Positions 44,187-53,665 of a stretch of 64,000 nt of DNA are shown here, piece by piece. Position 1 is the stretch's first letter, and the number at the start of each line of letters is the position of its first letter. Source of the stretch: Bdellovibrionales bacterium RIFOXYC1_FULL_37_79 (GTDB lineage: Bacteria; Bdellovibrionota; Bacteriovoracia; Bacteriovoracales; Bacteriovoracaceae). Position numbers and translations under genes: made by a program. Where the stretch lies: the NCBI GenBank assembly GCA_001770015.1, contig MEQB01000011.1, positions 124,001-188,000 of the forward strand, in the 5' to 3' direction. The notes under the pieces are model-generated. The model was not told where the DNA came from. It was given only the letters and a program-made list of their open reading frames with translations, and ran no database searches.

Positions 44187-45779
44187 TCAGGTTCTTCTTA
44201 AATAGAGATTAATATTTTCAAGTGTGATAAAAATTCGCTCTATGATTTTTTCATAGATGCGCCAGAGGGTATAACCTGCTTTGTATTTTTTCACTCTATT
44301 AAAAATAAAGATTAGTAAAAATTTATTGGCCTTGATGAATAATCCGTTGATAGATTCAAAAAATTTAAAAATAATGCCAAAGGCACTTGATTGCTCATCC
44401 TTGTATACAGTATTTATTTTTTTGAGATAATAAATTATCTCCTCGTGAGACATTTTAGACAGATTGGTTACCTGGTTCCAATCACCAGATTGGGTGATGT
44501 TTTCTTTGGAGAAATATCTCTTATAAAAATCTTGATCAGACTTTAAAAGACCTGATGAAATGATGTGATCATAAAGTTTTGATCCGGGAAAGGGTGTGGT
44601 TATGGTGAAAGCATATTGAATATTGGGATTGACCCGCATGGTTTTTTTAACCAATTCTATGGATTTTTCAACATCTTCACTGGTTTCATTAAATTGTCCC
44701 ACTTGAATGGATACTGTTGGATGAATTCCGGCGTTGGTCAGTCGCTTGATGTTGGCAAGGATCATGTCAGAAGTGCAGTTTTTACCAATTTCTTTTAAGA
44801 CTTTATCAGAACCGGATTCAATCCCAAGTCCCATGATGCGGCAACCGGTTTGTTTGAGTTCCAATAAGAGTTGGTTGTCAATTCTATCCAAAACATCGAA
44901 TCTGGCGGAGAGGGAATAGTCAAATTTTAGATTCATTGCCTTGATACCATCAACCAATTCCAAGGCCCGCTTGGGGGTGGCCAAAACCAAGTCGTCAGAA
45001 AAATAAATAAAATTGGCATTGAATTGATCAATGGCATTTCGGGCCTCATCCAGCATGTTTTTTATGGAACGATATCTGGGTTTGCTATGATGGTAACAAA
45101 AATTACAGATAAACGGGCAGCCTCTTCCTCCATGAATATTAACCACCCGGTCCCTATATTTCCAAAAAATTGGTTGGGGAAAGTTGTGTGCATACCATTT
45201 CCCTATATGGAGCCATTCATTTTCAGGGAACAATTTATATGGGATGGGTGGCAGCGTATCCAGGTCTTTAATATATTTTCCAGGCCCGGTGTTGATTATT
45301 TTTCCATTTTTTTTAAAAACGATGCCCTGGAGAGTGGATACATCAGAATTGTTTTTTAAAGCAGTGATGAGTTCATGTAAAATAATTTCGCCTTCTCCAA
45401 TAACCCCATAGTCTGCGCCGGTAATTTCCAGAGCAAACTCCGGAGTGGGAGATACCATTTGCCCACCTATTACCACTGGAATATCGGGAGCTTTGGTTTT
45501 TAGTAATTGGATTATTTGACCAATTTCTTTCAGCTCAGGATATAGTCCCCCGAGACCAACGATTAAAGGATTAGAAGCGATGATTTTATCAACTAGTTTT
45601 AAAGGACTGTCGTTACCTCTAAAGAGTATTTCCACTGGTTCATTTTTTTCCATTAAATAACCGGCCAGATAGGCAAAGGATAGGGGAAAGGTAAAGGCGA
45701 TTTTCCTGGAAATCAGCACAATTTTTTTAGGCCCGCTATTTATGTTCAAATAAAAATCCTTTGAAAGCGGCAATTTCAT
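44187..45779 (-). CDS. B12-binding-domain radical SAM protein
   Basis: 530 residues. N-terminal cobalamin-type domain with LSFAYLAGYLMEKNEP, VGLGGLYPEL and VVIGGQMVSPTPEFAL, then radical SAM core with Cys221, Cys225 and Cys228 in RGCPFICNFCY and the SAM region GIESGSDKVLKEIG. The C-terminus is hydrophobic and basic and may sit at the membrane. Third such protein in the locus, upstream in the Wzm/Wzt operon; overlaps the preceding fusion gene by 44 bp. Substrate unknown. Confidence 0.83.
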   Translation of the reverse strand: MKLPLSKDFYLNINSGPKKIVLISRKIAFTFPLSFAYLAGYLMEKNEPVEILFRGNDSPLKLVDKIIASNPLIVGLGGLYPELKEIGQIIQLLKTKAPDIPVVIGGQMVSPTPEFALEITGADYGVIGEGEIILHELITALKNNSDVSTLQGIVFKKNGKIINTGPGKYIKDLDTLPPIPYKLFPENEWLHIGKWYAHNFPQPIFWKYRDRVVNIHGGRGCPFICNFCYHHSKPRYRSIKNMLDEARNAIDQFNANFIYFSDDLVLATPKRALELVDGIKAMNLKFDYSLSARFDVLDRIDNQLLLELKQTGCRIMGLGIESGSDKVLKEIGKNCTSDMILANIKRLTNAGIHPTVSIQVGQFNETSEDVEKSIELVKKTMRVNPNIQYAFTITTPFPGSKLYDHIISSGLLKSDQDFYKRYFSKENITQSGDWNQVTNLSKMSHEEIIYYLKKINTVYKDEQSSAFGIIFKFFESINGLFIKANKFLLIFIFNRVKKYKAGYTLWRIYEKIIERIFITLENINLYLRRT

Positions 45780-47424
45780 GATCCGGTTTTATTTTTATTA
45801 CTCCGCCGAGGGCATTGAATTGATATTTCAAGTTATATTGTTTTGCAAAAAAATTTAACAAAAGATTCTGGCAAATAATCCAGCAAGGGTATGAAGCATC
45901 ATAAATGGAAGGGGGGACTTTTTGCAAAGTGAGCCGGTTTTGCGGACCGGCCATCAATAGGGTTCGGTCTATAATGATCCATTTGAAGTTGTAGGCCAGG
46001 AGGCTTTCAAGAGTGTGGAAAGGATTTTCCAAATAAGAAAGGACGCTGGATAAAAGCAGTACATCCGGGCGTCGATCATTTAAACAATCCGAAATATGTC
46101 TATAAAAATGTAATACCCCGTCTTCAAATTGTTTTTTTCCCGCTAAAAAAAAACTGTCTTGCTCGACTATGCACCATTCGAATAAATCCAGATTAGAAAA
46201 AGCATTTTTGTTTTGATAATAAAGGCTACCCAGTGATCCGCCGAAATCAAGGACGGATAACCTGGATGAGTTGGAACCTGCGATATCCTTTAGGATCTGG
46301 GTAAGTGGTTGGGAGTATTCATGCTGGTAAAAAAGCACCGAATCTCTCTCGAAGGCAGCTTTTCCTCGCTTAACTTTTTGTAATGATTTTTCAACCGCAT
46401 TTAAAATGGTATTATGTTCGTATCCTGTGGATATGTTTTTGACCTCTTCCCACGACCGGTAATTGCCAAAATAGCCCGCTTTATCATTCTCTAAAATAAA
46501 ATTTCTAATTTTCTTAATCAGGATTTTGGGAAGCAGGTACACGGGATATTTTTTAATTTTATCAAGCATGCCGGGAGACTTTATTTTTTCGTTAAAAAAA
46601 TTAATTAGCTGCTTTCTGGCCGTCTGGTCTTCCGTGATGGAAAGATCGGATAAAATCATTTTTTCATGGGATAAGTCAATATCCATGGAGTGATCCATTT
46701 GACAGTGCTGACCAGAACCGTCAGTACCAATATTGCGAACCAGGGATTTGCTGGGAAATAATCCAAGTTTGTTTTTTAAAAATGTAGAGGCGTACCATCT
46801 TATTGCCCAAGAGTTATTAAGTCCCAGTATTTGCTCCTTGAGCATCTGAAGGTAGTTGGCACTGCCTTCAAAGTCAAAAAGTTCAACTAGTTTTTGATTA
46901 GTAATTTGAGTCAATAGTTCATAACCGTCTCTTTGAAATAAGGCCCATCTATCCTGCCAGGTTGCCCATCCCCAGCAATCAGACATGCGAAGGAAGTATT
47001 GAAAGAAGGCGCTTTTTACTTCTGGATAAGCATATCCATGAATAGCGCAAACTTTAGTTTCGTGTTCATATTTATCCAAGGCTTCATTCATAAACGTAAG
47101 AAAATAAGGTGATGTCAGCATATCATCTTCCAAAACGATAATTTTTCCGAATTGGTTTACGACTTCAGTGACCCCGGTAATGATCGATTCAGCCAGACCA
47201 AGATTTTTCTCTCTTTCAATGAAGTTAATTTCACCAAACCCGGAAATCGTTTTTAAATATTCCCGCAGAATTTTGATTTTTTCAAAATCGCTTTTATTCT
47301 TTGGCCCATCTGAAAAGATTAAAAGGGTGCTTTGATCGGCACCAATATTTTTCTTTAGTGATTCGACGGTGCGTTGAGTATGATCTAGACGATTATAGAC
47401 AAATAAAGCGATTGGGGCGTTCAT
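45736..47424 (-). CDS. Fusion of GT2-like glycosyltransferase and TIGR04325-type methyltransferase
   Basis: 562 residues. The N-terminal half (about 1-300) is a GT-A glycosyltransferase-like domain: APIALFVYNRLDHTQRTVESL, IFSDGPKN, IIVLEDDMLTSPYFLTFMNEAL (E-D-D metal site), WGWATWQDRW. The C-terminal half (about 320-562) matches the TIGR04325 methyltransferase family: YRSWEEVKN, FERDSVLF, and the SAM motif LDFGGSLGSLY. These two domains are usually separate proteins. First gene of the minus operon leading to radical SAM, Wzm and Wzt; the combination fits transfer and methylation of one sugar. Confidence 0.8.
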   Translation of the reverse strand: MNAPIALFVYNRLDHTQRTVESLKKNIGADQSTLLIFSDGPKNKSDFEKIKILREYLKTISGFGEINFIEREKNLGLAESIITGVTEVVNQFGKIIVLEDDMLTSPYFLTFMNEALDKYEHETKVCAIHGYAYPEVKSAFFQYFLRMSDCWGWATWQDRWALFQRDGYELLTQITNQKLVELFDFEGSANYLQMLKEQILGLNNSWAIRWYASTFLKNKLGLFPSKSLVRNIGTDGSGQHCQMDHSMDIDLSHEKMILSDLSITEDQTARKQLINFFNEKIKSPGMLDKIKKYPVYLLPKILIKKIRNFILENDKAGYFGNYRSWEEVKNISTGYEHNTILNAVEKSLQKVKRGKAAFERDSVLFYQHEYSQPLTQILKDIAGSNSSRLSVLDFGGSLGSLYYQNKNAFSNLDLFEWCIVEQDSFFLAGKKQFEDGVLHFYRHISDCLNDRRPDVLLLSSVLSYLENPFHTLESLLAYNFKWIIIDRTLLMAGPQNRLTLQKVPPSIYDASYPCWIICQNLLLNFFAKQYNLKYQFNALGGVIKIKPDHEIAAFKGFLFEHK

Positions 47425-47600
47425 ATGTTAAAAATTATGATGGACAAGCTTAACAGATGTCAATTTATTAGATGTGTCTTCTTGGGGTTGGCGCGTCGAG
47501 CTGTAGTTGTCTATATTTTTTGATAAATCAAAATAAATTTATTTAAATAAAACATAATATTTCAATATAACTAATTGTAATTACACAAATATTAAATATA

Positions 47601-47647
47601 TTGATGAAATTTATAAGGATAAACTAGAATATATGTTATCATGATAA
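47601..47647 (+). promoter_or_regulatory. Promoter and 12-bp perfect palindrome before the AbiE-like pair
   Basis: TTGATG (47601-47606) and TAGAAT (47625-47630), 18 bp apart, are a plausible promoter. The perfect palindrome TTATCATGATAA (47636-47647) lies near the expected transcript start and just before the ribosome site AGGAG (47650-47654), a good position for an autoregulatory operator. The rest of 47425-47600 is AT-rich and shows no gene. Confidence 0.42.
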
Positions 47648-47660
47648 ATAGGAGAAGCTT

Positions 47661-48692
47661 ATGACCAAAGATATTGATATTCTTAATGAAAATAGTTGGT
47701 TGAAAACTGATTATGGACTTTTCAATAAGAAAGAAAATATAAAATTTATTAAATTATCCAATAGAGATTCACTGAAGGATGTCCTGCGAGTGATTACGCT
47801 TGTTCATCCAAAAGAGAAATTTGGAATTATTTGTTCTTCATTAAAAGAGAGAGATCTTATTTTACTGAAAGAGAAGCGAATCTCCTATTGTATTCCAGAT
47901 TGTGAGATCAAGATTTTTTCAAGCAATGATCGAGAGGTTAAATCAAGTCCAATATTGGGGAGTTTTTTTGTAAATAAATTTGGCCCAACGTTGATTGTTT
48001 CTCCGACAGGGCTTGAGATAGTGGATACTGTTTTAAAATTGGATGAGCAAGAAATTCAAAAAAAACCATCTCAAATATCACATAAGTATGGTCTCTCTCA
48101 GCCTAAAATAAGTCAGATGATGACGGCCTTTGGAGTTAAAACACTTTTGCAGTTAAAAGAGAGTTTTCTTAATTTAGAGTTGTCTTGGTGGTATTATGCA
48201 TTCGATCTATCTCTTACTAAGAGGAAGATGACACCTTTTAAAACAAAACAAACTAGAAAATATAGTTTCAAGAATAAGACTGGTGCTTCAGCTTTTATGG
48301 ATAAGGTTGTTTTGTTGAAGAAAAAAAATATCGAAATTGAAATAGGAGGACTTGGTTATTTGAAAGCAATGGGTGTTTTAAGAATGTCAGAGTATGACGT
48401 TGTGGTAAGGGCGGATCAAATAGCTGATGTTGTGAATGCAATGGATTTAAGACCTGCCAAAAAAGGTGAAATTGAAAATCTTGTTTTTGTGACACCATTG
48501 ATTGCGGGTATTCATAGCGAAAGATTCAGAACCAGAATTTCTAGCAGGGATGCGCGTATTCCTGAATATATTAGAGAACTCAATCTTCTTAGATATCTTT
48601 GGGGATTAAATTACGAGGAAGGAAGAGTTAAAGAAGAAAAAAAATCTCTTCTGGAGAAATATTTTAATGAGGCTCGAAAAAGTAATTATTGA
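47661..48692 (+). CDS. AbiEi-like regulator/antitoxin candidate with central HTH
   Basis: 343 residues. I do not recognise a named family for the whole protein. A helix-turn-helix-like segment is at about 134-160 (KPSQISHKYGLSQPKISQMM). The C-terminal part, with a GALAALG-like GGLGYLKAMGVL and a following strand-rich region ending near VFVTPLI, resembles AbiEi-type antitoxin C-domains. ATG 47661 has AGGAG six bases upstream. The downstream gene overlaps by 26 bp and encodes a nucleotidyltransferase-like protein, as in AbiE and related type IV toxin-antitoxin loci. Confidence 0.6.
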   Translation: MTKDIDILNENSWLKTDYGLFNKKENIKFIKLSNRDSLKDVLRVITLVHPKEKFGIICSSLKERDLILLKEKRISYCIPDCEIKIFSSNDREVKSSPILGSFFVNKFGPTLIVSPTGLEIVDTVLKLDEQEIQKKPSQISHKYGLSQPKISQMMTAFGVKTLLQLKESFLNLELSWWYYAFDLSLTKRKMTPFKTKQTRKYSFKNKTGASAFMDKVVLLKKKNIEIEIGGLGYLKAMGVLRMSEYDVVVRADQIADVVNAMDLRPAKKGEIENLVFVTPLIAGIHSERFRTRISSRDARIPEYIRELNLLRYLWGLNYEEGRVKEEKKSLLEKYFNEARKSNY

Positions 48693-49464
48693 AAAATGGA
48701 AAAAAGATATTGAGTTTTGTTTACCAGGATTACTTGATGCTATAGAAAAACAAAAATCAAAAACATTTCTAATTGGAGCTTGTATTTTTGATGTTTATCA
48801 AATGCAAGGTTGGTTAAAAAAATTTTCCAGGCGAACCGGTGATGCTGATTTTACCATTGAGTATCTTGGTAACTCCTCCGAGTATCAGGATGTTTGTAAG
48901 GATCTTCTTAAGCAAGGATATAGGAGGGATGATATTCATCCTTATCGCTATCATCCACAAAAAGTGAATGGTGTGTATGCTTATGTTGATTTTTTGACTT
49001 TTACTACGGACCCTTCTCTTGAAAAACAAGCAAAGGCCATGATGTCAGTTGGTGAAAGTTTTAATTTTGAAGGAATGGCCTTTGCGAAACATAATCCACT
49101 TCATGTTGAAAAAAATATTTATATTCCAAATCCTTTGGCACTTATCTATCTCAAGATGAGATCGTATTATCATAATCCAGAGAGGCAAAAAGATTTTGTT
49201 GATGTAGTGGAAGTGATCTTGCGAATTTCGATGGAGAGTAACATTATGAAGGATCTAAGAGACATAATGGAAAATCTAACTGAAGTTATAGTAAAACAAC
49301 AGATCGAAAGAATGTGTCTCGATATTGAACGTGACAGAGGAGGCCTTTGGGATTTAGACAATATCAAAATAGGCTTGGATGAACGGGCCCTTCTCGATGA
49401 GTTTGAGTGGGATACAATTGCAACAACATTTGAGTTTTTTCGGATGAAAATTTTTAAGCCTTAG
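48667..49464 (+). CDS. Nucleotidyltransferase-fold protein, AbiEii-like toxin candidate
   Basis: 265 residues of the minimal nucleotidyltransferase superfamily by motif. Gly37-Ala38 in FLIGACIFDVYQ stands for the usual Gly-Gly/Ser, Asp59-x-Asp61 in RRTGDADFTIEY are the metal ligands, and Asp108 in YAYVDFLTF could be the third carboxylate. It continues with HVEKNIYIPNPLALIYLKM and an Asp-rich helical region, as in AbiEii toxins. Unlike the two neighbouring AbiEii genes the frame is intact. GGAG lies 11 bases upstream of the ATG. Function as a toxin is inferred from pairing and fold. Confidence 0.65.
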   Translation: MRLEKVIIEKWKKDIEFCLPGLLDAIEKQKSKTFLIGACIFDVYQMQGWLKKFSRRTGDADFTIEYLGNSSEYQDVCKDLLKQGYRRDDIHPYRYHPQKVNGVYAYVDFLTFTTDPSLEKQAKAMMSVGESFNFEGMAFAKHNPLHVEKNIYIPNPLALIYLKMRSYYHNPERQKDFVDVVEVILRISMESNIMKDLRDIMENLTEVIVKQQIERMCLDIERDRGGLWDLDNIKIGLDERALLDEFEWDTIATTFEFFRMKIFKP

Positions 49465-49500: not shown

Positions 49501-49581
49501 TCAGAAGGCTTAGTGGATAATAGATCATAGGTTTGTCGTAAATCGGCTTCCGGCACTACCAGCTAAAATAATTCCTTTCCT
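49501..49581 (-). pseudogene. Fossil 5' fragment of a second rmlA
   Basis: On the minus strand from 49581 the sequence reads [AGG for ATG] then KGIILAG-S-AGSR, matching RmlA residues 2-13, and after a deletion of about 48 bases continues out of frame with a sequence matching YDKPMIYYPLSLL. Nucleotide similarity to the intact rmlA (56395 downwards) is plain, for example 21 of 22 at ACCAGCTAAAATAAT-CCTTTC. It overlaps the last codons and the stop of rmlD. Confidence 0.75.
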
Positions 49582-50450
49582 AGATATCCTTTCTCTTTTA
49601 AATAATCATGTAGAGCATCTTCCCATCTTTTGGGAGAATATAATTTACTGATTTTTTCAGTTGATAAAGCACAATATCTTGGTCTCTTGATGACGGTGGG
49701 AAAATCTTTGGAGCTAATCGGGAGAACTTTTACATTTTTAAGACCCAGCAACTCGACTACTTTATTGGCCAATTCAAAATAGGTACATGCTCCTTGGCAA
49801 GCGAAGTGATAAATCCCGTATTCAAAGTCAGGAGTTTGAAGAATTTTTAACACGCATTTGACAACTTCTTGGGTATAAGTGGGAGATATAACTTGGTCGG
49901 TAACAAATTTGATTTCATGGTTTTCTCGTGCTTTGGACACGATGGTATCAATAATATTTATACCCTTACCTCCAATGCCCTGTGCGCCAAACACCGAAGC
50001 TATGCGGAGAATATAATATTTTTTATGATTAGCTATAATGTATTGCTCTCCTTTTAATTTACTATCACCGTAAACATTGATGGGATTTACCAGATCGGTT
50101 TCGCAGTAGGGCGTGGCTTTATCCCCATCAAAAACGTAGTCAGTGCTAAAGTGGATTAAAGGTATGGAGTGTTTATTGCAATACTTGGAAATGGGGTTTA
50201 AGGAATGGGCGTTAATCAGGAAAGCTTTGGACGGATTTTGTTCGCAAAGGTTGGTGTTGGTCCAAGCGGCACAGTTGATGACATAATCAACCTTATCCAG
50301 ATGGTTAAACAATTCTTCTAACTCACTAGGATTTTCAAAATTTACTTCGTCAGAGTCGGTGGTAAGAGTGGTGTAAGATGAGTTGGCAGAAAGTGCTTTA
50401 GTTAGATCACTCCCCAGTTGTCCTTTGTTTCCTAAAATAAGAATTTTCAT
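49563..50450 (-). CDS. rmlD: dTDP-4-dehydrorhamnose reductase
   Basis: Last step of dTDP-L-rhamnose synthesis. 295 residues: GNKGQLGSDL at 7-16, NCAAWTNTNLCEQNP, STDYVFDG, and Y-x3-K in NVYGDSKLKGE. The C-terminus runs through WEDALHDYLKEKG and ends in GKELF, whose codons coincide with the start of a fossil rmlA, so the natural stop may have been lost. Separated from rmlC by the 3.5-kb AbiE island, although rml genes are normally adjacent. Confidence 0.92.
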   Translation of the reverse strand: MKILILGNKGQLGSDLTKALSANSSYTTLTTDSDEVNFENPSELEELFNHLDKVDYVINCAAWTNTNLCEQNPSKAFLINAHSLNPISKYCNKHSIPLIHFSTDYVFDGDKATPYCETDLVNPINVYGDSKLKGEQYIIANHKKYYILRIASVFGAQGIGGKGINIIDTIVSKARENHEIKFVTDQVISPTYTQEVVKCVLKILQTPDFEYGIYHFACQGACTYFELANKVVELLGLKNVKVLPISSKDFPTVIKRPRYCALSTEKISKLYSPKRWEDALHDYLKEKGYLGKELF

Positions 50451-50741: not shown

Positions 50742-51341
50742 ATGAACAAAACTGTTAAACAAAAAGTTATAGATTGTATCCACCAGCATGGAGAGGGATG
50801 GGTTTTTACCACTAACGACCTGATTGATCTTGGAAGTGAAGAGGCAATTCATGTTACTCTTCATCGTCTTACAGGACGTGGAGAAATTAGTAGAGTTGCA
50901 CATGGAATATATTATTTTCCTAAGCAAAATGAATTATTAGGAACGATGCCTCCTGACGTCCGTTCTGTCGCTAAAGCTTTAGCTGAAAAATATCAAATAA
51001 GAATCCAACCATCTGGTGCCTATGCAGCTAACCTACTCGGGTTGTCTGAGCAAGTCCCTGCAAGAGTGGTGTTTCTCACTGATGGTGAGAACAAAAAAAT
51101 TAAAATTGGAAAAATAGATCTTATTTTTAAAAAAACGACTCCTAAAAATATGACAATGGCAGGAAAAATTTCCGGACTAGTTGTACAGGCCTTAAAGTAT
51201 TTAGGGAAAGAGTATATTGATGAAAAAAAAATCAATATCATTAAAAAAAAGCTTAGTGTTATTGATAAAAAAATTTTAAAAGAAGATTCTAGATTTGCAC
51301 CTGTTTGGATAAGCAAAATTATTAATACAAAAATTGTGTAA
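50742..51341 (+). CDS. AbiEi-type antitoxin (DUF6088 family), module 1
   Basis: 199 residues. N-terminal winged-helix region with DLIDLGSEEAIHVTLHRLTGRGEISRVAHGIYYFP, the pattern of AbiEi/DUF6088 antitoxins, then GAYAANLLGLSEQVPARVVFLTDG and a basic C-terminal stretch. Expected to repress its own promoter and neutralise AbiEii. Intact, with AGGA six bases before ATG 50742. The adjacent toxin gene at 51349 is broken. Confidence 0.82.
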   Translation: MNKTVKQKVIDCIHQHGEGWVFTTNDLIDLGSEEAIHVTLHRLTGRGEISRVAHGIYYFPKQNELLGTMPPDVRSVAKALAEKYQIRIQPSGAYAANLLGLSEQVPARVVFLTDGENKKIKIGKIDLIFKKTTPKNMTMAGKISGLVVQALKYLGKEYIDEKKINIIKKKLSVIDKKILKEDSRFAPVWISKIINTKIV

Positions 51342-51348
51342 GGATCAA

Positions 51349-52374
51349 ATGGATAGGTTTTTAGATTTGTCAGAAGAAAATAGAATTGCAATTTTTAGCA
51401 AATAAGAGGTTGATATAGGTCTTTCAGAAGATTTAATCGAGAAAGATTTTTGGGTTTGTTGGATACTAAAAAAACTCTTTGAATTAGATCATATTCAAGA
51501 CAACTTCACTTTTAAAGGTGGAACTTCATTATCCAAAGTCTATAAAGTCATTAATAGATTTTCTGAAGATATTGATATCTCGGTTGAACGAGCCTCTTTG
51601 GGATTTAAGGATAATAAAGAACCTGCGAACGTTGGGCCTAGGCAAGCAAAAAGATTAATCGAAGAGTTGGGAATTGCTTGCAAGAAATTTGTCCAAGGTG
51701 ATCTCTATGGCCGACTAAAAAATGTTATCGAATCTAAGCTTGGCCTAAAAGGCTGGAAGCTAGAAATTGATGAGGAAGATAATGACGGCCAGACAATTCT
51801 TTTCATGTATCCCAAATTAACGGCCAAATCTTCTGAATACATAAAACCAGTTGTGAAGATTGAGCTAGGTGCTAGATCAGATCATTGGTCAGTGAGTATG
51901 CACAAGATTTCACCTTATATTACCGAAATTTTACCATCACCACTTAATCAAATGGATGCTGAAATATGAGTTTTAAATATAGAGAGGACCTTTTTGGAAA
52001 AGGCCACAATCCTGCATAAATATTCGCATTATCCTAACGATAAAAATGTTCCAGAAAGACAGTCTAGACATTTTTTTGATTTCTACTGTCTTTTGAATTC
52101 AGTTGGGAAAACCAGGGCACTAGAAAATGAAGAGCTTCTTGAAAAAGTTGCGGCACATAAAAATATCTATTTTAAAGCTGCTTGGGCTCAATATTTAACT
52201 GCAAAAAAAGGAAGTTTAAGACTTGTTCCAGAAGAAAAAGTTATGAAGGCTATGGAAGCAGATTATAAAGCGATGAGAGATATGTTTGCGGGTGATGTTC
52301 CTTCATGGGATACCATAATTAAGTTGATAAGCGCTTTTGAAAAAGACTTTAATTATTCAGAGAAGAAGAAATAA
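51349..52374 (+). pseudogene. AbiEii-type nucleotidyltransferase toxin, two in-frame stops
   Basis: Reading one frame from ATG 51349 (seven bases after the antitoxin stop) gives 341 codons of near full-length AbiEii, interrupted by TAA at 51403-51405 and TGA at 51967-51969. Motifs survive: EKDFWVCWILK, FKGGTSLSKVYK, and RFSEDIDISVE with the D-x-D pair; after the second stop VLNIERTFLEKATILHKYSHY and a normal C-terminus continue. No frame change is needed, so decay looks recent, or these are sequencing errors. Confidence 0.82.
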
Positions 52375-52422: not shown

Positions 52423-52454
52423 TTGTCCATATTTTAGGCCTAAAATATGGACAA
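52423..52454. promoter_or_regulatory. Perfect 32-bp palindrome at the start of abiEi-2
   Basis: TTGTCCATATTTTAGG followed immediately by its exact reverse complement. It sits between AGGAG (52411-52415) and ATG 52456, and swallows an alternative ATG at 52447. As DNA it suits a dimeric repressor; as RNA it would form a 16-bp hairpin (less a few loop bases) that brings AGGAG to about eight bases from ATG 52456. Confidence 0.7.
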
Positions 52455-52455
52455 G

Positions 52456-53187
52456 ATGAAAGAAAAAATTGCCACTTCTATTTTAAAAAGAATCAAGAAA
52501 ATGCCCGATGGAGCGGTCATTACTCCAGATTCATTTCCCGAATCCTGGTCGAGGAAGGCAATCACAAGAGCCCTCTCTAGATTGCAAAAAAAAGGGGTCA
52601 TTGTACGTTTACAAAATGGGATATATTCCAAGTCTAAAGAAACGAGACTTGGTCCTGCTTCATCTTCTCCTATCGAAATAATTTCTATGAAAATAGAGCA
52701 AAGTCAAGACAAGTGCCTTGGGGGACTCTGCCTTTACAATAAATTGGGGCTGACAACCCAAATACCATCAGTCATAGAGGTTTTAAATAATAAATCCAGT
52801 TATAACACAACGCTTGGCAACACTCGGATTCGATATGTTCGGATCAGGCCCAGAATAACAGAGCAGACAAAAAACTTAATACTAATTTTGGAAGTAATAA
52901 AAAATGTTAAATTGATTATGGATTCAGAGCTGAAGACAACAGTACGCTGGATTTTGCAAGTGATTAAAGGTCTCAATAAACAAGAAAGAAAGCTTCTTGT
53001 TGCCGTCTCCATGGATTATCCTCCTCGTGTATGTGCAATACTGGGGAATATTCTTTCTTCCATTGATCGGTCTCTTTCAGAAAAGCTAAGGAAGGGCCTT
53101 AACCCTAATAGTGTTTATCGGGTCGGGGGAATTGCTGATAATCTGAAGGATTCAAAAAAGTGGAGACTACAAAATGAATCTGCATAA
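52456..53187 (+). CDS. AbiEi-type antitoxin (DUF6088 family), module 2
   Basis: 243 residues. N-terminal winged helix: ILKRIKKMPDGAVITPDSFPESWSRKAITRALSRLQKKGVIVRLQNGIYSKS. The C-terminal half resembles AbiEi of module 1 in position only, so the modules are related but not a recent duplication. ATG 52456 is chosen over 52447, which lies inside the palindrome. The stop overlaps the start of the broken toxin gene (53174). Confidence 0.8.
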   Translation: MKEKIATSILKRIKKMPDGAVITPDSFPESWSRKAITRALSRLQKKGVIVRLQNGIYSKSKETRLGPASSSPIEIISMKIEQSQDKCLGGLCLYNKLGLTTQIPSVIEVLNNKSSYNTTLGNTRIRYVRIRPRITEQTKNLILILEVIKNVKLIMDSELKTTVRWILQVIKGLNKQERKLLVAVSMDYPPRVCAILGNILSSIDRSLSEKLRKGLNPNSVYRVGGIADNLKDSKKWRLQNESA

Positions 53188-53665
53188 AAACCCTGAAGAA
53201 TTTCGTGCTGCAATTTTAGGGGCGGCAAAGAAATATTCCATTCAAGAGCATATGGTTGAAAAAGATTATTGGATCACGGTTGTGCTTCATAATTGATCGA
53301 AGTCTAGTTTTTCCGATAGGGTTGTATTCAAGGGTGGAAGATCGCTTTCAAAGGCCTATAAAATAACTCAACGATTTTCTGAAGAATGTGACTTGGCCCT
53401 AATACCAGGTGAAGAAACTGCAAATCAAATTAAAAACCTGATTACCAAGATCGAAAAAGCAATAGTATCTACTCCGTTTGAAGTGGTGAAAGAGCATCCA
53501 TTAATCAGCAAAGGTTCAAAATTCAGAAAAACAGTTCTGGCAGCCTTGGAGAATACATACAACGATTCATTCAAATTGCTTTTGTTCGAGAGTGCCCCAG
53601 AGATTTGGTCATATGAAGCGTCACTTGCTTTGATAGGTGAACGGCTTAAAAAATATGATAAGTGA
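53174..53665 (+). pseudogene. Truncated AbiEii-type toxin with in-frame stop
   Basis: ATG 53174 has GGAG eight bases upstream and overlaps abiEi-2. The frame shows VEKDYWITVVL, a TGA at 53294-53296, then VVFKGGRSLSKAYKITQRFSEECDLAL, where the family's G-G-T-S is G-G-R-S and the first Asp of D-x-D is Glu. It stops at 53665 after 163 codons, about half normal length. Nucleotidyltransfer activity is very unlikely. Confidence 0.82.

Follow-up and report, generated by a model that had tools for sequence, protein, structure and literature searches.

A far-diverged regulator-nucleotidyltransferase pair of Bdellovibrionota as a probable branch of the AbiE toxin-antitoxin superfamily

Does the intact pair of a regulator gene and a nucleotidyltransferase (NTase) gene, found in a 4.36 Mb genome (74 contigs) of the phylum Bdellovibrionota, form a toxin-antitoxin system of its own kind, or is it a remote member of a known one? 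A preliminary description of this DNA left the pair without a named family and suggested a distinct type IV-like or phage-defence system. In the following, the window denotes the whole stretch of DNA that was analysed (64,000 nt). The features of the locus are listed in Table 1.

Table 1. Features of the regulator-NTase locus (window positions)
Feature	Position	Strand	Remarks
Sigma-70-like promoter candidate TTGATG-N18-TAGAAT	47601-47630	+	consensus scan, 9/12 matches
Predicted operator, left arm ATTTATAAGGATAA	47609-47622		within promoter spacer; pairs with right arm at 12/14 positions
Predicted operator, right arm TTATCATGATAAAT	47636-47649		contains 12-bp palindrome
Ribosome-binding site AGGAG	47650-47654	+	read off the sequence, 5' of regulator ATG
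Regulator / predicted antitoxin gene	47661-48692	+	343 aa; open frame
NTase / predicted AbiEii-like toxin gene	48667-49464	+	265 aa; open frame

The two genes share 26 nt according to the window's open reading frames, i.e., the earlier picture of an intact helix-turn-helix (HTH) regulator overlapping an intact NTase was confirmed, including its coordinates. The pair is flanked by a glycosyltransferase gene (45736-47424) and by rmlD (49563-50450), such that its setting is a polysaccharide (rml) locus. A strong sigma-70-like site (TTGACA-N18-CATAAT, 11/12) is located at 47434-47463 on the minus strand, directly upstream of the glycosyltransferase gene and divergent from the operon. tRNA genes were sought across the window and none were found. 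Downstream, between rmlD and an rmlC-like gene, we recovered the two decayed AbiE modules already reported (50742-52374 and 52447-53665). In both, the antitoxin frame is open (199 aa in the first, 246 aa in the second) and the toxin gene is broken. TAA at 51403 and TGA at 51967 interrupt the first AbiEii frame; the second is interrupted by TGA at 53294 and ends early, at 53663. For the pair itself, divergence from the closest relative found (locus L002) was computed per codon position (1/2/3), which yields 0.39/0.23/0.56 for the NTase and 0.46/0.34/0.59 for the regulator. On the sequence level, this pattern supports coding function and protein-level constraint for both window genes.

Next, both proteins were searched, each alone, against Pfam, NCBIfam, PADLOC, PHROGs and PDB sequences, without a significant match. 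The window NTase passed none of the curated thresholds (PF08843, PADLOC AbiEii, NCBIfam), and the PF09952 cut-off was passed by neither the window regulator nor its seven relatives. The best curated-model match of any NTase of the family is to PADLOC AbiEii (E 0.0033) and belongs to one relative, not to the window protein. Pfam matches to BTRD1 and Ig_VEGFR were dismissed as chance, and calmodulins found in a PDB profile search with the NTase-side alignment A1 (E 0.001-0.03, C-terminal helical stretch) were attributed to chance composition.

Both proteins were also studied by profile-profile comparison (hhalign), for which further AbiEi_2 operons from Bdellovibrionota were aligned as comparison set. 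The profile of the window-family NTases aligns with the AbiEii proteins of PF09952-PF08843 operons at 98.3% (E 1.7e-14), spanning motifs I-IV, with the C-terminal third of the NTase outside the alignment. The regulator profile matches the AbiEi_2 regulators with E 1.9e-5 and a probability of 77.6%, collinear over 255 columns, which agrees with the AbiEi-like C-terminus noted before. Reversed, 40 column-shuffled and crossed controls reached scores of at most 22, compared to 103 and 46 for the real comparisons. Matches of the NTase profile also include three loci, each with genes for a regulator (347-354 aa) and an NTase (278-300 aa). Their proteins exceed the curated Pfam cut-offs, with E 1e-21 to 1e-26 for AbiEi_2 and 1e-6 to 1e-8 for AbiEii. 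One of these loci, L027 (G000:C6), is an intact AbiEi_2-AbiEii operon (354 + 280 aa) of the window's own genome; an integrase-like tyrosine recombinase gene, read from the sequence, is found just upstream of it (L035 2745-3404). Furthermore, the sister AbiEii profile reaches MenT1 (8an4) in the PDB with E 0.0036. Judged by these alignments, both products are homologous to AbiEi_2 regulators and AbiEii enzymes, respectively, where the homology of the regulator is drawn from the profile comparison only. That is, the statement that no family can be assigned holds for ordinary family searches, while profile-profile comparison places both proteins within the AbiE superfamily.

The residues of the NTase are in line with this placement. 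Across seven relatives, G37, D59-x-D61, D108, K163 and K175-D176-x-x-D179 are invariant, as expected from the G-A...D-x-D...D residues pointed out previously. With the motifs taken as in Dy et al. 2014 (PMC3985639), all four of AbiEii are present: motif I (hG[G/S], with Ala in certain homologues) as I36-G37-A38, motif II (Arg + DhD) as R55-x-T57-x-D59-x-D61 with R55, T57, D59 and D61 invariant, motif III (lysine + aromatic) as L162-K163 with an invariant Y167, and motif IV (+DxxD) as K175-D176-F-V-D179 with invariant K, D and D. The second residue of the Gly-Ala pair is Ala in 6/7 proteins and Ser in L003. The preliminary description had taken both the Gly-Ala pair and the short toxin as departures from AbiEii, and neither point survived. 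Gly-Ala is common to intact AbiEi_2-AbiEii pairs of the phylum, including that of the same genome, and their toxins measure 265-300 aa. In addition, the second Gly of motif I is Ser or Ala in some AbiEii homologues, and the AbiEii G50A mutant retains its toxicity (Dy et al. 2014, PMC3985639).

Structure predictions were based on alignments that left out the closest relatives L002 and L003. In the fold check proposed earlier, the NTase model reached pLDDT 85 and pTM 0.84 (6-sequence alignment). Its Foldseek matches to solved structures, all weak with E of at least 0.03, include enzymes of the pol-beta superfamily (Cid1, pol beta, LnuA, ANT), and giant-virus LicD-family proteins are also found among the weak matches; MenT or AbiEii structures are absent from the 50 matches listed. 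The regulator model was too poor for such a check (pLDDT 59.7), being confident only for parts of residues 107-280, with a helix-turn-helix at about 136-157. Its best fold match, an aminoglycoside nucleotidyltransferase with E 0.08, was discarded since the match is too weak and the model too poor.

From N- to C-terminus, the window regulator comprises a variable domain (about 1-105), the central helix-turn-helix (about 115-160) and the AbiEi_2-like domain (about 200-343). Alignment A2 of the window-family regulators does not show the D...(D/E)xK pattern that AbiEi_2 regulators keep in their N-terminal domain, where D51 and K70 are invariant (alignment A10: L020, L026, L027, L034, L036, L037, L038, L042). 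This pattern of the AbiEi_2 regulators resembles PD-(D/E)xK nuclease-like domains, and L020 shows a marginal TnsA-like match (E 0.08); the N-terminal domain of AbiEi_2 antitoxins is possibly nuclease-derived.

We also studied how widely the pair is distributed. A tblastn search over 369 Bdellovibrionota genomes identified nine further NTase loci, including ones from other genera and families. Identity to the window NTase is 57% for L002, 39% for L003 and 29-33% for L004-L007; the weakest locus, L010, turned out to be spurious (unrelated frame). The regulator profile matches in 8/369 genomes, all of which (8/8) also carry the NTase, in the case of G358 as a remnant only. Two further genomes contain NTase fragments alone, namely G347 (at a contig edge) and G344 (a 75-residue stretch). 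Genome G330 harbours two NTase copies (L025/L030 and L028), the second being cut by the contig end and located beside a PF01637 ATPase gene. Apart from the window's own, none of the 39 nearest genomes has the pair. Close relatives were sought in plasmids, phages and viral contigs and none were found, so at that sensitivity nothing points to a form carried by plasmids or phages. A scan of 84,980 species genomes gave matches in Bdellovibrionota only, but it used short peptide patterns from four members, such that absence from other phyla is not proven by it. So far, the family appears, from the sequences searched, to be restricted to this lineage.

Within Bdellovibrionota, the pair stays together across several taxonomic families, with the regulator-first order conserved in well-preserved loci and overlapping genes in most of them. 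NTase and regulator divergence are correlated (r 0.90, permutation p 0.007, 7 loci), which can largely be explained by shared ancestry alone. The neighbours vary: an alanine racemase-like gene and a DUF4143 ATPase at L028, a peptidase-like gene and a response regulator at L029, and a pol-beta NTase gene at L002. The product of the latter gene, 189 aa long and with a pol-beta NTase domain, overlaps a 148-aa protein without Pfam match (330-1329), possibly another NTase-type toxin-antitoxin pair. Concerning decay, G358 keeps a whole regulator with the NTase down to an 80-aa frame. Loss of the toxin with retention of the regulator, seen here and in both AbiE modules next to the window pair, fits an NTase that is the costly part. 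The opposite decay in G216 (regulator shortened, NTase open) does not fit this reading.

Next, we evaluated the promoter region. The promoter candidate of Table 1 is weak, since the A+T-rich stretch gives 6 such matches compared to 3.0 in shuffled sequences. The 12-bp perfect palindrome TTATCATGATAA reported for this region is indeed present (47636-47647). It lies in the right arm of an inverted repeat of greater extent, ATTTATAAGGATAA-N13-TTATCATGATAAAT (47609-47649), which overlaps the promoter candidate and has an arm spacing of 27, the same as the family operator. On its own, the palindrome is unremarkable in this A+T-rich stretch, given other 14-bp palindromes nearby and a p-value of about 0.26 for the best local inverted repeat. 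It is the conservation in relatives, not the palindrome itself, that makes the operator reading count. The 16-mer ATGTTATCATGATAAA is conserved in L002, immediately 5' of its regulator, and the upstream DNA of L002 aligns with the window better than in 500/500 shuffles.

Most family members carry the inverted repeat TTATTnAGAT-N17/18-ATCTnAATAA in front of the start codon. The search pattern (with N17) was taken from L031, which has two copies. At a spacing of 27 or 28, the repeat precedes the start codon in L003, L006, L028 and L018 (each with p 0.002, the lowest value that 500 shuffles can give) and is weaker in L029 (p 0.012) and the window (p 0.07); all these p-values are optimistic because the pattern was picked after viewing the sequences. 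For L002, no match to the family half-site was obtained (p 0.77). Common to L002 and the window is GATAA-N13-TTATC-AT-GATAA with identical spacing. The two operator forms are connected by L003, whose family repeat includes GATAA and TTATC the same distance apart.

Taken together, we consider the pair a far-diverged, lineage-restricted branch of the AbiE toxin-antitoxin superfamily, nearest to AbiEi_2-AbiEii and presumably self-repressing and type IV-like with an RNA-modifying toxin (probability roughly 0.77). A type IV-like toxin-antitoxin or defence role, as suggested in the preliminary description, is plausible, but as a divergent AbiE branch rather than as a separate kind. It seems unlikely to us that the pair is a distinct toxin-antitoxin or defence type of Bdellovibrio-like bacteria, in which a regulator with a rebuilt N-terminal sensor domain would control an AbiEii-fold enzyme of altered substrate (another RNA or another nucleotide) and the trigger would be peculiar to predators or to the phages of predators.

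We regard it as quite unlikely that the NTase does not stop growth and that the pair works as a unit of regulation or metabolism, e.g., an NTase that serves the polysaccharide locus with its own regulator. The position between the glycosyltransferase gene and rmlD and the LicD-family proteins among the weak fold matches would fit such a unit. On the other hand, the neighbours in relatives (L028, L029, L002) are unrelated to polysaccharides, on which ground a LicD/polysaccharide role was rejected; furthermore, the pair is sporadic (8/369 genomes) and the AbiEii-specific motifs III and IV are kept. That the pair descends from an AbiE-type module but has since been domesticated or has lost its activity, with a regulator at work elsewhere, is very unlikely in our assessment: both window genes are open with all catalytic residues kept, and their codon-position divergence from L002 indicates protein-level constraint, even though toxins were lost in the two adjacent AbiE modules and family copies are damaged elsewhere (toxin reduced in G358, regulator shortened in G216). 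An independent origin outside the superfamily, i.e., a toxin-antitoxin-like pair that converged on the AbiE layout, might be suspected from the missing matches of the window proteins in any family library, the weak PDB fold matches and the regulator's lack of the D...(D/E)xK of the AbiEi_2 N-terminal domain. Since both partners show profile homology, gene for gene, with negative controls, we hold it to be highly improbable.

For an AbiE-type pair, the following mechanism is proposed, with analogues drawn from PMC3985639, PMC11375011 and PMC10435456. The regulator would bind the predicted operator and repress its own operon, and it would neutralise the NTase, keeping the enzyme inactive. Once this balance is upset, the free pol-beta-fold NTase would add nucleotides to RNA, most likely to tRNA 3' ends as with MenT toxins, and growth would stop. 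By analogy with MenT1 and MenT3, the antitoxin may neutralise the enzyme by inducing its phosphorylation, here at the invariant Thr57. This residue is found two positions ahead of the first catalytic Asp (D59); in MenT1, the phosphorylated residue is T39, likewise two positions ahead of an Asp, D41 (PMC11375011, PMC10435456). Toxicity, neutralisation and phage defence of the window pair are what we infer from such analogies; biologically, it probably serves phage defence or keeps a chromosomal island stable.

AbiE ranks with the most common defence systems. The window branch stays below every threshold in Pfam, NCBIfam, PADLOC and PHROGs and is therefore missed by surveys; alignments A1 and A2 can be converted into search models for it. 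No experimental study of an AbiEi_2-type pair was found in the literature searched. The fixed-spacing operator and the invariant Thr57 offer a test, in such pairs, of autorepression and antitoxin-induced phosphorylation, which are known from AbiE and MenAT.

Finally, we compared the pair with known systems. HEPN/MNT (HepT-MntA) likewise combines a pol-beta-type NTase with a partner, but its NTase acts as the antitoxin to a partner that is a HEPN RNase, whereas the 343-aa partner in the window matches AbiEi_2 regulators by profile and gave no HEPN match when one was sought. MenAT of Mycobacterium tuberculosis (MenT1, MenT3) shares the NTase fold family and a Thr/Ser two residues before the catalytic Asp; in contrast, MenA1 is a short, unrelated protein, and the activity of the window enzyme is a predicted one. 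Classic AbiE (AbiEi COG5340-AbiEii COG2253; Streptococcus agalactiae, type IV) is bicistronic with the antitoxin first, promoter inverted repeats and motifs I-IV, all shared by the window pair with its predicted antitoxin and operator-like repeats. Its AbiEi has two domains with an N-terminal winged HTH, while the HTH of the window regulator is central and follows an extra N-terminal domain of about 105 residues, and the spacing of motifs I and II is 15 residues compared to 20 in the window NTase (A38 to D59). The nearest system is the AbiEi_2 (PF09952)-AbiEii (PF08843) operon, which probably corresponds to COG4861-COG4849 in Dy et al. 2014. The window family differs from it by escaping PF09952 and PF08843 and by an N-terminal domain without D...(D/E)xK. 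Both share a regulator of some 350 aa in which the HTH lies between an N-terminal and a C-terminal domain, an NTase of 265-300 aa with Gly-Ala, DxD, a third D, K and +DxxD, and an order in which the regulator comes first and the genes often overlap.
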